From positions 719,672-783,671 of the forward strand of contig PNAE01000007.1 of NCBI GenBank assembly GCA_003169895.1: 64,000 bases of DNA. Direction: 5' to 3'. The translations under genes were made by a program, and so were the position numbers. Shown here in pieces: positions 4,132 to 62,389 of the stretch (positions are counted from its first letter, which is position 1; every line of letters starts with the position of its first letter). The notes below the pieces were generated by a model. That model was not told the DNA's origin and did not search any database. It saw only the letters and a program-made list of their open reading frames with translations. Source of the DNA: Gemmatimonadota bacterium. GTDB taxonomy: Bacteria > Gemmatimonadota > Gemmatimonadetes > Gemmatimonadales > GWC2-71-9.

Positions 4132-6518
4132 AACCGCGCTGTCCCTCCCGCCGTACCGCTGCCATGCTCCTGCTCCAATTGCTGCTGCTCTCGAATCCGG
4201 CGAAGGCCGATCGCGTCGACACACCTATCCACTCCGGTCGCGCGGGGCAGACGACCGTCCAGCTGCCCAGGCTCGAAGGCAACGTTGCCGTTGACGGCAT
4301 GCTGGACGAACCCCAATGGAAGGCGGCGGCGATACTCAACGGGTTCTCGCAGTTTACGCCCGTCGACGGTGTGCCAGCCGCGGATTCGACGGAGGTACTG
4401 GTCTGGTACTCGGCCAGCGCGCTATACGTCGGCATCCGCGCGTTCGATCATGTGGGAGCCGTACATGCGACGCTCGCAACCCGCGACCAGATCTTCAACG
4501 ATGACAACGTCCAGATGTTTCTGTCGACGTTCAATGACGGGCGTCAGGCGATGGTCTTTGCCGTCAATCCGTTCGGCGTGCAAGCAGACGGTGCGTTGAA
4601 CGAGAACGGCGGATCGTCATGCGGGATGGCAGGGTGTGGCTCGCAAACGCGGCAACAGCCGGATCTGTCGCAGGATTTCGTGTGGGAGTCGAAGGGTCGC
4701 GTGACGCCGAATGGCTACGAGGTCGAGATCCGGATTCCGTTCAGGAGCATTCGCTTCCAGGCGGGCAAGACGCAGACGTGGGGAATCAATTTCCTGCGTA
4801 CCGTGCAGCGCTCCCGGCAGGAACAGACATGGACTGCGGTAAAGCTTGCCGCCTCGTCGTTCCTCGCCCAGTCCGGCCGGCTCGAAGGGCTCACCGATCT
4901 TGACGCGGGTCACGTCGTGGACATCGTGCCCACGGTGACCTCTCGGGTGACCTACGCGTCGCCGGCCTCGGGCGCGGCCTGGGACTATTCCGGCGGCAAT
5001 CCGCAATTCGGCGGCGACCTGCGGTACGGCCTCACGCCGAACTTGACGCTGCACGCGACGGCGCATCCGGACTTCTCGCAAGTGGAGAGCGATGTCACGC
5101 AATTCGCGTTCGACCCGCGCCAGTCCCTGTTCTATCCGGAAAGACGGCCATTCTTCCTCGACGGCGTTGAACAGTTTGACGCGCCGGCCAACCTCATCTA
5201 CACCCGCCGCATCGTGCAACCGGTATTCGCCGGCAAGGTCACCGGCAAGGTCGGCGACAACCAGGTTGGCGTGCTCGCCGCGGTCGACGATCGCGCCGCG
5301 TCCAACTACGGCGATAATCCCGTGTTCGGCCTGATCCGCGCATCGCATGACCTGGGCCCCGGTTCCCGACTCGGCATGGTCTGGACCGAACAGCGCGACG
5401 GACCCGAAACCAACCGCGTCGTCGATGTCGACAGCCGCATGGTGGTCGACAAGATCAATTCGATCACCCTCACCGGCGCGCTAGCGCATGACGATCAGAA
5501 TGGCGCCGCGAACGACGCGGCGTTGTGGGGCGTCGGCTACCGGCGCGCTGGCCGCAACTTCCGGATGAACTACGGCGTGTCCGGCATCGGGACGAACTTC
5601 ATCACCCGCTCGGGATTCATCGGACAGCCCGGGGTCGCAAATGCGACCATCGACAACAGCTACACCTGGTTGCAGGTCAACCGGACGCTCGAGTCGCTCA
5701 CGGCCGACGTGATGGTTGCCGGCCAGTGGCGGTACGATGACTTCGTTCACGGTGGTCCGATCCAGAACCGACAGCTACACTTCAATTTCAATGCGCGACT
5801 GCGCGGTGGCTGGGGCGCAGGTGCTTTCTATTTCCGCGAATCATTCGGCTATGACCCGTCGATCTATACCAGCTACGGCCTGCGCCAGGCGGACGGGACC
5901 GTCGTTCCGTTTACCGGCGGCAACGCGCGCCTGCCGAACAATGACTATGGGATCAGCGGGAATACCCCGACCTGGAAGCACTTTGACTTCAACGGGTTTG
6001 TTCTGGCGGGGCTCAATGACGAGAACTACAACGAATGGGCGTCCGGGCGCATTGTATTCGCCAATGTTGGCATGGACATCCGGCCCACCAATCACCTGCG
6101 GTTCAACTTCGCCTACAACGACAGCCGGGTGTACCGGCCCAGCGACGGATCGCGCGTGCAGTTGCAGGATGTCGCCATCGGCACGGTCGAGTATCAGTTG
6201 TCGCGGGCGTTCCAGCTCCGGGTGATTGCGCAGTATTCGATCAACGCTCGCGATTCGTTGCGAGACGATTCGCGCACCAAGCTGCCGATTGTGATTCGTG
6301 ATCCGAGCACCGGGATCTATTCGCCGACCGCGGCGTTCGACAGCCGGCAGCTGCAGGCCAATTTTCTGTTCACGTACCTGCCGAACCCGGGCACCGTCAT
6401 CTATCTGGGATATGGCACGGTCGACCAGCGGCCGGACCTGATTGGCCGCGCGACGCTGGGTCCGGTGCAGAACGACTTTTTTCTGAAGGTTTCGTATCTG
6501 TGGCGGATGCGGGGATAG
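4128..6518 (+). CDS. DUF5916 outer-membrane protein with N-terminal CBM9-like domain
   Basis: A 796-residue protein starting at the GTG that overlaps the hrpB stop. This gives a good signal peptide (KPRCPSRR, hydrophobic AAMLLLQLLLLS, cleavage after AKA). An ATG at 4164 is an alternative; the open frame upstream of 4128 is only hrpB read in another frame. Residues ~40-230 resemble the carbohydrate-binding family-9-like domain (LEGNVAVDGMLDEPQW is its typical opening). The remainder is the DUF5916 region, with barrel-like strands and the characteristic ending FFLKVSYLWR. DUF5916 proteins are common secreted/outer-membrane proteins in Gemmatimonadota and Bacteroidota; no substrate is known. Confidence 0.88.
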   Translation: MKPRCPSRRTAAMLLLQLLLLSNPAKADRVDTPIHSGRAGQTTVQLPRLEGNVAVDGMLDEPQWKAAAILNGFSQFTPVDGVPAADSTEVLVWYSASALYVGIRAFDHVGAVHATLATRDQIFNDDNVQMFLSTFNDGRQAMVFAVNPFGVQADGALNENGGSSCGMAGCGSQTRQQPDLSQDFVWESKGRVTPNGYEVEIRIPFRSIRFQAGKTQTWGINFLRTVQRSRQEQTWTAVKLAASSFLAQSGRLEGLTDLDAGHVVDIVPTVTSRVTYASPASGAAWDYSGGNPQFGGDLRYGLTPNLTLHATAHPDFSQVESDVTQFAFDPRQSLFYPERRPFFLDGVEQFDAPANLIYTRRIVQPVFAGKVTGKVGDNQVGVLAAVDDRAASNYGDNPVFGLIRASHDLGPGSRLGMVWTEQRDGPETNRVVDVDSRMVVDKINSITLTGALAHDDQNGAANDAALWGVGYRRAGRNFRMNYGVSGIGTNFITRSGFIGQPGVANATIDNSYTWLQVNRTLESLTADVMVAGQWRYDDFVHGGPIQNRQLHFNFNARLRGGWGAGAFYFRESFGYDPSIYTSYGLRQADGTVVPFTGGNARLPNNDYGISGNTPTWKHFDFNGFVLAGLNDENYNEWASGRIVFANVGMDIRPTNHLRFNFAYNDSRVYRPSDGSRVQLQDVAIGTVEYQLSRAFQLRVIAQYSINARDSLRDDSRTKLPIVIRDPSTGIYSPTAAFDSRQLQANFLFTYLPNPGTVIYLGYGTVDQRPDLIGRATLGPVQNDFFLKVSYLWRMRG

Positions 6519-6525
6519 ACGGAGG

Positions 6526-6553
6526 GACGAGAGACGAGAGGCGAGAGACGAGA
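6526..6553 (+). repeat. Four-unit heptad array (GACGAGA)
   Basis: GACGAGA, GACGAGA, GGCGAGA, GACGAGA in strict 7-bp register. It fills the 44-nt gap between the convergent DUF5916 gene and the amidotransferase-like gene. Confidence 0.75.
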
Positions 6554-6562
6554 GAAAAACCC

Positions 6563-10778: not shown

Positions 10779-10795
10779 GGGGAGGGATCCTTGAT

Positions 10796-10889
10796 GGCTA
10801 TTGGCTATTGGCTAACGGCTGTTGGCTGCTCCGTGCCTCGCTCAAATATTCGCACTATGTGGCTGAACGGCCAACAGCCAATCGCCAGT
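10796..10889. repeat. Inverted pair of heptad arrays (GGCTATT type)
   Basis: The left array has five units (GGCTATT, GGCTATT, GGCTAAC, GGCTGTT, GGCTGCT; 10796-10830). The right array (10869-10889) reads on the other strand as ACTGGCG, ATTGGCT, GTTGGCC. GGCTGTTGGC in the left arm pairs with GCCAACAGCC in the right, giving a stem around a 38-nt loop. It lies in the gap between two genes of one operon. Confidence 0.7.
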
Positions 10890-57887: not shown

Positions 57888-57915
57888 CTTCACGTCTCAC
57901 GTCGTACGTTCGACG
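57888..57915. repeat. Four-unit heptad array (CTTCACG, TCTCACG, TCGTACG, TTCGACG)
   Basis: Units in exact 7-bp register at the junction of two convergent genes. They overlap the last codons of the alpha/beta hydrolase. Confidence 0.55.
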
Positions 57916-58529
57916 CAGCGGTCCCGCACCAGTGCGCGCACCCGGCGGTCATTCATCATGAACGGGTGGCGCAGTGGCAGGGCAATCCACTCTTCCGTTC
58001 CATCGAGTCTGGTTTCGTTCACCGACACCATGCCGTCGTTCTGCTCCGGCCCGAATGGGCTCCAAGGCCCGCTGATGCCGCGCGTCCCGGCGATCACGGT
58101 GCATGGGATGCTCGGCGGCGGAATCCGTGCGATGCGCGATTCGCTGGCGAGAAGATCGCCCGCGTCGCCATTCATCAGCCGGTACCACCAGAACCGCTCG
58201 AACCGCCGCGCGAGCCGTGGTGAGTGATTAGGTGTGCCTATCATGATGATCCGCCGCGGCGGGCGCACATCGGACGGCAGGCCGGCGACCGCGGCGCGCA
58301 GCAGCAGTCCACCGAGCGAATGGCCCACGACCACGTAATCGCCAGCCGCCATCACGGTCAACCGCGCCTGCAGCCGCCGGAGGATCCCGTCGACCGATTG
58401 CCATGCGGTCGCATACGCGAAGAGTTCCGGCGTCAGCCCAGCCCGGCGCAATGAGCTGGCCAGTCGCCACATGGAGAGTGGTGTGCGACCCATGCCGTGG
58501 ACCAGCAGGACGTGCGTGCGCAAAGCCAT
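57897..58529 (-). CDS. Cytoplasmic alpha/beta hydrolase (lipase-like)
   Basis: A 210-residue alpha/beta hydrolase. Oxyanion strand VLLVHGMGRTP, nucleophile elbow VVGHSLGGLL (Ser at ~70), and acid/His candidates in EQNDGMVSVNET and LPLRHPFMMND. Small enzymes of this type resemble EstA/PGAP1-like triacylglycerol lipases. No signal peptide. Substrate unknown. Bounded by heptad arrays on both sides. Confidence 0.85.
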   Translation of the reverse strand: MALRTHVLLVHGMGRTPLSMWRLASSLRRAGLTPELFAYATAWQSVDGILRRLQARLTVMAAGDYVVVGHSLGGLLLRAAVAGLPSDVRPPRRIIMIGTPNHSPRLARRFERFWWYRLMNGDAGDLLASESRIARIPPPSIPCTVIAGTRGISGPWSPFGPEQNDGMVSVNETRLDGTEEWIALPLRHPFMMNDRRVRALVRDRCVERTT

Positions 58530-58537
58530 GTAACGGA

Positions 58538-58685
58538 ACGTAAGAGGTGAGAGGTGAGAGGTGAGAGGTAAGAGGTAAGAGGTGAGACGTGAGAGGTAAG
58601 AGGGAACAGCAGAGTCGTTCCTCGCCGTCGCCTCAGGACGAAGCGACTTCTCTCACCTCTCACCTCTCACCTCTCACCTCTCACC
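58538..58685. repeat. Large inverted pair of heptad arrays (AGGTGAG type)
   Basis: The left array runs from 58538 to 58603 in 7-bp units (ACGTAAG, AGGTGAG three times, AGGTAAG twice, AGGTGAG, ACGTGAG, AGGTAAG). The right array (58651-58685) has five perfect TCTCACC units, the reverse complement of the left ones. With a 47-nt loop they can form a stem of 30 bp or more. It fills the gap between the YceI and alpha/beta hydrolase genes. Confidence 0.85.
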
Positions 58686-58686
58686 G

Positions 58687-59253
58687 CTATTTGGGCCGCA
58701 TCAGCTCGGTATTGATGATGATCTTGATCTCGTCGCCCACCGCAACACCGCCGGTCTCGAGCAGCTGATTCCACATCAGGCCGAAATCCTTGCGGTTGAC
58801 CTTGCCGGTGGCGCTGAAGCCGAGGCGATCATTGCCCCACGGATCAGGGCCGGCGCCTTCCGACGTCACATCCATCGTGATTTCGCGCGTGACGCCACGA
58901 ATGGTGAGATCGCCGACCAGCTTGAACTTGTCGCGGATATCGCCTTCGATGCGCCGTCCCTTGAACGTCATGAGCGGATGGTGTTCGGCGTCGAAGAAAT
59001 CGGCTGAACGCAGGTGCGTGTCCCGCTGCTCGTTGCGGGTGTCGATTGTGGCGATCGGAATCGAGACCTCGAGCTTGAGGGAACCGGGTCGCGCCGGGTC
59101 GTAACTCACGCTGCCCGTCGGGTTCGAGAAGCGACCCTTGACGTTCGAGATCATCAAGTGCCGGGCCGAGAACTCGACTTCGGTATGTGCGGTATCGATC
59201 TGCCAGGGCGCGGCGACCGATGCTGGGGCTTCCGCGAGCGTTTCTACTGCCAT
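58687..59253 (-). CDS. YceI-family lipid-binding protein
   Basis: A 188-residue lipocalin-like protein without a signal peptide. Family blocks: WQIDTAHTEVEFSARHLMIS, VKGRFSNPTGSVSYDP, DTRNEQRDTHLRSADFFDAE, KLVGDLTIRGVTREITMDV and FSATGKVNRKDFGL. YceI proteins bind polyisoprenoids or related lipids. Promoter and a perfect palindrome are upstream (59338-59377), so expression is probably inducible. Confidence 0.94.
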   Translation of the reverse strand: MAVETLAEAPASVAAPWQIDTAHTEVEFSARHLMISNVKGRFSNPTGSVSYDPARPGSLKLEVSIPIATIDTRNEQRDTHLRSADFFDAEHHPLMTFKGRRIEGDIRDKFKLVGDLTIRGVTREITMDVTSEGAGPDPWGNDRLGFSATGKVNRKDFGLMWNQLLETGGVAVGDEIKIIINTELMRPK

Positions 59254-62310: not shown

Positions 62311-62389
62311 TCCGGCGGTCCTCGGGTTGGTGGAACTGAACCGCAGCCATGAGCCGGAACGGCAGCCCTGGGCCGCAAGGCCGCAGCTG

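Follow-up and report, generated by a model that had tools for sequence, protein, structure and literature searches.

Where nine AGGTGAG-like heptamers face five TCTCACC heptamers between two genes of a Gemmatimonadota bacterium, two questions arise: is the hairpin an isolated oddity or one of many, and how does such an element come to lie at the end of a gene? We analysed it within the window, i.e., the whole stretch of 64,000 nucleotides in which it was found, within its source genome (G000; 3.42 Mb, 13 contigs, 98% complete), and by comparison with related genomes.

The hairpin between yceI and the hydrolase gene

The two facing arrays fill the 157-bp gap between yceI and a gene for an alpha/beta hydrolase, both transcribed from the minus strand (Table 1). 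Tandem Repeats Finder assigned them a period of 7 and the top two scores among its 34 rows for the window, which bears out the original prediction that this is the largest heptad hairpin array there, with about nine drifting units on the left and five perfect ones on the right. Read on the minus (coding) strand, the second arm consists of GGTGAGA units and begins 1 nt past the yceI stop codon, and the purine arm becomes the 3′ pyrimidine arm, whose end is separated from the hydrolase start codon by 13 bp. The best-aligned arms are 39 nt long, 92% complementary, and 68 nt apart. The minus strand as RNA is predicted to fold at −101.5 kcal/mol (z = −9.9) and the plus strand as DNA with z = −7.4, and none of 200 shuffles was as good in either case. 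Rfam returned only matches below the gathering scores, mostly to microRNA hairpins, which are expected by chance because the stem is long.

Table 1. Features of the yceI-hydrolase locus, in window positions
Feature	Position	Strand	Description
Purine arm	58543-58603	+	AGAGGTG, 8.7 copies, some with G-to-A or G-to-C changes; 90% matches, score 94
Loop	58604-58649	.	46 nt; heptads aside, not similar to the genome's other sampled elements
Second arm	58650-58685	-	5.1 perfect CTCTCAC units on the plus strand; 100% matches, score 72
yceI	58687-59253	-	Upstream gene; YceI-like protein, PF04264
Hydrolase gene	57897-58529	-	Downstream gene; alpha/beta hydrolase, PF12697
Minor array	57888-57915	-	About 2 copies, GACGTGA GACGTGA on the minus strand; core 57890-57903 (14 nt, score 7); holds the hydrolase stop codon

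Other parts of the prediction fared less evenly. It had extended the hairpin over 57888-58685, a range in which the structure is real at 58543-58685 and which also spans the coding gene for the hydrolase. The adjacent minor array does have a period of 7, as claimed, and amounts to only about two copies; its heptamers were said to be different, yet GACGTGAGACGTGAAG on the minus strand fits the same ASGTRAR word family. The drift of the left arm against an identical right arm is present (4 of 61 mismatched positions vs. 0 of 36), but the difference is not significant (Fisher p = 0.29), and the recent homogenisation of the right arm that was read from it is compatible with these counts and unsupported by them. 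Read in the minus-strand RNA, the G-to-A changes of the left arm become G.U pairs (−107.8 vs. −100.1 kcal/mol at this site), a first hint of selection on the transcript.

A genome-wide class of period-7 arrays

The window hairpin belongs to a large class of similar elements. Three ASGTRAR units in tandem, with at most 2 mismatches, were matched 413 times in the whole 3.42-Mb genome, compared with 0 matches for the reversed control pattern. Period-7 arrays with a score of at least 12 numbered 4 in the whole window vs. 0, 0, 1, 0, and 0 in five first-order shuffles, and 34 in the first 464 kb vs. 0 in one second-order shuffle. Array context was sampled in 41 stretches comprising 864 kb of the source genome, in which 53 of 62 period-7 arrays (score at least 11) were intergenic, compared with 5 of 33 when all remaining periods between 4 and 12 were pooled; genes were called with a simple purpose-written codon-usage caller that misplaced some of them (e.g., in stretch L110), and such context counts are thus approximate.

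The commonest consensus words among 56 arrays of the source genome are ACGAGAG (18 arrays), AGAGGTG (6), and ACGTGAG (5), which resemble one another, and the unrelated words AGCCATG, AGTGGCT, and AATAGCC also occur. The GAGGTGA unit of the hairpin at 58543-58685 equals the complement of part of the anti-Shine-Dalgarno end of 16S rRNA, a likeness that is probably a coincidence because words such as ACGAGAG do not match. Elsewhere in the window, other period-7 or related arrays with the words CCCCCAG/CAGCCCC, AGACGAG, and TGGCTAT lie at 1504-1589, 2185-2212, 6517-6555, and 10795-10827, and the array at 6522-6555 sits between two convergent stop codons. At 62338-62375, the 19-mer GAACCGCAGCCATGAGCCG is present in two copies and contains GCCATGA, a heptad word known elsewhere in the genome.

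The polarity of the facing arrays is fixed. Eighteen intergenic regions hold arrays of both kinds, purine-rich and pyrimidine-rich, and the purine-rich array leads in every one; in two of them the arrays are unmatched and lie 306 and 377 nt from each other. Among partnered clusters, 20 of 21 were purine-first in the first 464 kb and 31 of 32 in four genomes; the word of the sole paired cluster of the source genome that departs from this order is near neutral (0.45). In a transcript of either strand, a purine arm thus precedes its pyrimidine complement. Arms also match within a locus: an arm shares 7-mers with its own partner at 0.415 vs. 0.200 when partners are permuted, a value reached in 7 of 20,000 permutations. 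Of 38 intergenic clusters in the first 464 kb, 21 are accompanied by an inverted partner above the shuffled null and 17 are not. Outside the heptads, no similarity was detected among 57 elements at an E of 1e-3; arm lengths vary between elements, and the boundaries are heptads with no fixed end sequence. Selection on the transcript strand was considered as a candidate and rejected, given that sense and antisense RNA of 25 tandem elements fold alike (median difference 0.1 kcal/mol, p = 0.79).

The arrays abut stop codons. Where the upstream gene lies on the same strand, the array starts between −20 and +25 nt from its stop codon in 24 of 25 cases (median 0), and for the 15 arrays next to an opposite-strand neighbour the median distance is 30 nt, arrays with 40-60% purine being excluded from both figures. 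Placement is closer to the stop codon than uniform (KS p = 1.4e-4, 27 elements), and in intergenic regions longer than 250 bp the array is still found there in 4 of 5. The stop codon is overlapped by 11 of the 27 arrays and lies wholly inside 7. This placement may partly be a consequence of short ancestral gaps and the sparing of the next gene's leader. The purine-strand heptads contain a stop triplet in 57% of the 56 source-genome arrays vs. 32% when the letters are shuffled and 2% on the other strand; in other genomes the figure is all 7 arrays (G004), 92% of 13 (G082), and 30% of 10 (G001). A three-frame stop as a general requirement was rejected, as the commonest word, ACGAGAG, has no stop triplet and still abuts stop codons.

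Gene junctions with and without hairpins in congeners

The hairpin was absent from the yceI-hydrolase junction of four congeners (G001, G002, G007, and G009), in which the two genes are adjacent. From yceI stop to hydrolase start, with start codons judged by eye, the distance is 13 nt in G001, 9 in G009, 18 in G007, and 44 in G002, compared with 157 in the source genome. Because these four have a gap of 9-44 bp without a hairpin, it was probably gained in the source lineage. The leader before the ATG looks alike by eye in G001 (ACCTTCCGGCCC) and the source genome (ACGTTCCGTTAC), as if the element had entered directly after the yceI stop codon. The evolutionary instability that had been predicted for the array is thereby supported between species; fixed length and sequence among relatives were looked for, and the opposite was found.

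Other junctions behave in the same way. Synteny was compared in the fetched stretches of the four congeners, giving 119 gene-pair rows, two G009 rows being one place, and the arrays of relatives were entered as presence and score only. In G007, an array with a score of at least 9 was detected at none of 12 junctions that bear one in the source genome; the median intergenic length of those pairs is 107 bp in the source genome vs. 29.5 bp in G007, compared with 32 vs. 33 bp for 47 array-free pairs, and at 3 of the 12 junctions G007 has 700-1109 bp between the genes, so that these are not clean empty sites. In G001, an array was detected at 0 of 6 such junctions (median 128 bp in the source genome vs. 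65.5 bp), the score having missed a two-copy GCCATGA-type hairpin that is visible by eye at one of them, where the source genome has AGGCCTC units. An orthologous junction with its own hairpin of another word indicates that a junction can be reused. About 1.2 kb from the window hairpin the situation is reversed: two genes separated by 12 bp in the window have orthologues in G001 with an AGAGGTG array between them.

On these sequences, heptad words are lineage-bound. Of 10 genomes of the genus, 7 contain GACGAGA arrays, compared with 0 of 51 outside it, and three AGGTGAG units with at most 2 mismatches were matched in 18 of 121 genomes, with at least 40 matches in the source genome, G082, and G084. 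The arrays of G004 use GGATGAT-, GACAGAT-, and GACTAGA-type words, and in G008 a GATTGGC/T hairpin follows the yceI homologue, which is 48% identical. No arrays were found in 100-140 kb each of G007, G027, and G079, nor did the single words AGGTGAG and GACGAGA yield any in their whole genomes. Heptad hairpins thus seem to turn over at the ends of genes in this genus, and they alter gene ends, some arrays containing the stop codon, and part genes that are adjacent in relatives. Within one genus, some genomes are rich in hairpins and another has none in the sampled stretches, and the same junction exists with and without a hairpin, which makes the birth and the effect of the elements directly testable.

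Known systems, proposed origin, and alternatives

Facing heptads have already been published for Xanthomonas, and the present elements are a variant that uses several words and lacks three-G tracts. The accessible text of Rehm et al. 2015 (PMC4692102) describes GGGAATC and GGGGA(C/T)T heptamers in Xanthomonas and Nostoc, in Xanthomonas as facing pairs at stop codons. Common to those repeats and ours are the 7-nt tandem unit, the intergenic location, and the convergent pairs with the purine/G-rich arm first, and the position at stop codons is shared with Xanthomonas. They differ in that our commonest units have no three-G tracts, a G-quadruplex of the Xanthomonas/Nostoc type thus not being expected; the AGAGGTG unit of the window has GG at most, and among the listed consensus units only ACGGGAG (1 of 56 arrays) has GGG. 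They differ also in that several word families coexist here in one genome. According to the same text, 90% of repeats lie between the same ORFs in both species, a gene-order comparison unlike ours, in which array-free junctions are seen in congeners, and the excess of heptamers among bacterial simple repeats had been noted with little follow-up.

Other heptamer arrays are known from more distant bacteria. The TAACTGA direct repeats of marine Beggiatoaceae are, in the portion available of MacGregor 2015 (PMC4679880), likewise intergenic and dispersed in the genome. In Chloroflexus aurantiacus, 22 (GATAGRA)n satellites derive from one purine-rich heptamer in one genome, a further likeness, according to the excerpt of a 2019 paper, "Satellites in the prokaryote world" (PMC6749651); facing arms and the stop-codon position, both features of our elements, are not mentioned in that excerpt. 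The extracts of PMC3974934, in which a tandem repeat is a 53-kb assembly matter, and of PMC4476775, on the P6b repeats of the Nostoc trnL intron, concern other repeats. No literature on heptad hairpins in Gemmatimonadota was found by a search that left most subscription journals outside.

Starting from what is observed directly (genome-wide occurrence, fixed polarity, arm matching within loci, stop-codon position, and absence in four congeners), we hypothesize, with slightly better than even confidence, that the hairpins are a short-lived class of intergenic stem-loops that originate by slippage and fold-back, are kept after stop codons, and have a REP/BIME-like effect. Replication slippage would seed and lengthen the arrays, and fold-back template switching would write the second arm or keep it complementary, which would give both arms of a locus the same dialect and leave the loops unrelated. 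Lengthening by slippage together with template-switched matching arms would be the best fit to the sequences. Ectopic copying between arrays could keep a few words common in one genome. The sharing of words across the genome needs such an extra step, either ectopic copying or a biased generator, and this is the weakest point of the mechanism: slippage alone fails to explain a preferred genome word at a new site without an obvious seed. Elements would persist where insertion is tolerated, i.e., between a stop codon, which they follow directly, and the leader of the next gene. In the window, the element separates a tight yceI-hydrolase pair, and its long stem in the joint transcript would probably stabilise the upstream message in the manner of REP/BIME and weaken the coupling to the downstream gene. 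An effect of this kind on message stability or gene coupling would be the likeliest consequence, yet it is the least certain step.

Among the alternatives, it is improbable, though less so than the others, that the hairpins terminate transcription in both directions, with heptads simply as the terminator stems of this lineage. The arrays lie directly after stop codons, 13 of 87 convergent intergenic regions carry one, and transcripts begin or end at G4-forming heptads more frequently than at control repeats in the text available from Rehm et al. (PMC4692102). However, arrays are not significantly rarer in divergent than in convergent regions (8/76 vs. 13/87, p = 0.49, in regions of up to 400 bp); at least one array-bearing divergent region, in stretch L110, looks like an error of the gene caller. 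The two genes that flank the window element also form a tight pair in four congeners. Tails past the second arm are T-rich (0.362 in 34 sense tails vs. 0.185 in the intergenic background), but antisense tails are about equally so (0.332 in 22 tails, p = 0.81), which fits leftover heptad pyrimidines, and only 8 of the 34 sense tails have at least 4 T in 8 nt. A sense-specific T-tract after the stem was rejected, the apparent enrichment being gone in this comparison with antisense tails. The sense tail of the window hairpin, TACGTTCCGTTACA, has 3 T in its first 8 nt, and our terminator consensus scan, which allows loops of 3-8 nt only, is blind to this hairpin.

A somewhat less probable reading is that the heptad runs are sites for a protein that recognises a repeated word in DNA or RNA, in line with the post-transcriptional regulator that MacGregor 2015 proposes for TAACTGA in the part of PMC4679880 available. 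One word family does recur genome-wide and at stop codons, but unrelated words stand beside the ACGAGAG/ACGTGAG/AGAGGTG series in the same genome, relatives use other words, and junctions that bear an array in the source genome have no detected array in the congeners compared. On a similarly low footing we place a general or dedicated mechanism with a 7-nt step that would create paired heptad hairpins from scratch at the ends of genes, whatever the exact word and with the purine strand leading, and would do so independently in Gemmatimonadota, Xanthomonas, Nostoc, and perhaps Chloroflexus; if true, it would explain differing words and loops with a constant period and polarity.

Classical REP/MITE transposition is an unlikely source of the heptad hairpins, and we give little credence to elements moved by a transposase. 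Ours are dispersed, palindromic, intergenic, and lineage-specific, and they share dispersed extragenic stem-loops with the REP/BIME-RAYT system as described in the accessible portion of PMC2817692; the array-bearing congeners G001 and G004 have Y1_Tnp genes, as do G005, G006, and G008, and a separate dispersed palindrome of about 140 bp exists in congeners. Unlike that system, our elements have a stem of tandem heptads, with nothing in common outside them. Y1_Tnp (PF01797) had no match at an E of 0.001 in the source genome or in G082, G084, G076, and G032, all four of which carry AGGTGAG arrays, and a reverse transcriptase (PF00078) had none in the source genome at the same E. Transposition or an RT-based writer is disfavoured because of the lack of RAYT and RT matches, the unrelated loops, and the free arm length with heptads in place of a fixed end sequence. 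Chance or an assembly artefact is scarcely credible: assemblers handle hairpin repeats poorly and the genome is in 13 contigs, but the reversed pattern had no match and related arrays occur in independent genomes of other species.

Two other repeat families were seen in the genus. A dispersed repeat of about 140 bp at L021:14754-14894 (G000:C8:1154754-1154894) matches on both strands and is REP/MITE-like and separate from the heptads; it has dozens of matches in G001, whose Y1_Tnp gene is of the RAYT type, and more in G009. A second palindromic family, with GTCACCCTGAGCGCAGCGAAGG-like and GTCATCCTGAGC-like sequences, occurs at L021:10935-11105 and at the G001 orthologue of gene pair 1 of L010. 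Its palindromes occupy the same type of junction as the hairpins, and in L021 they stand beside the heptads of one element.
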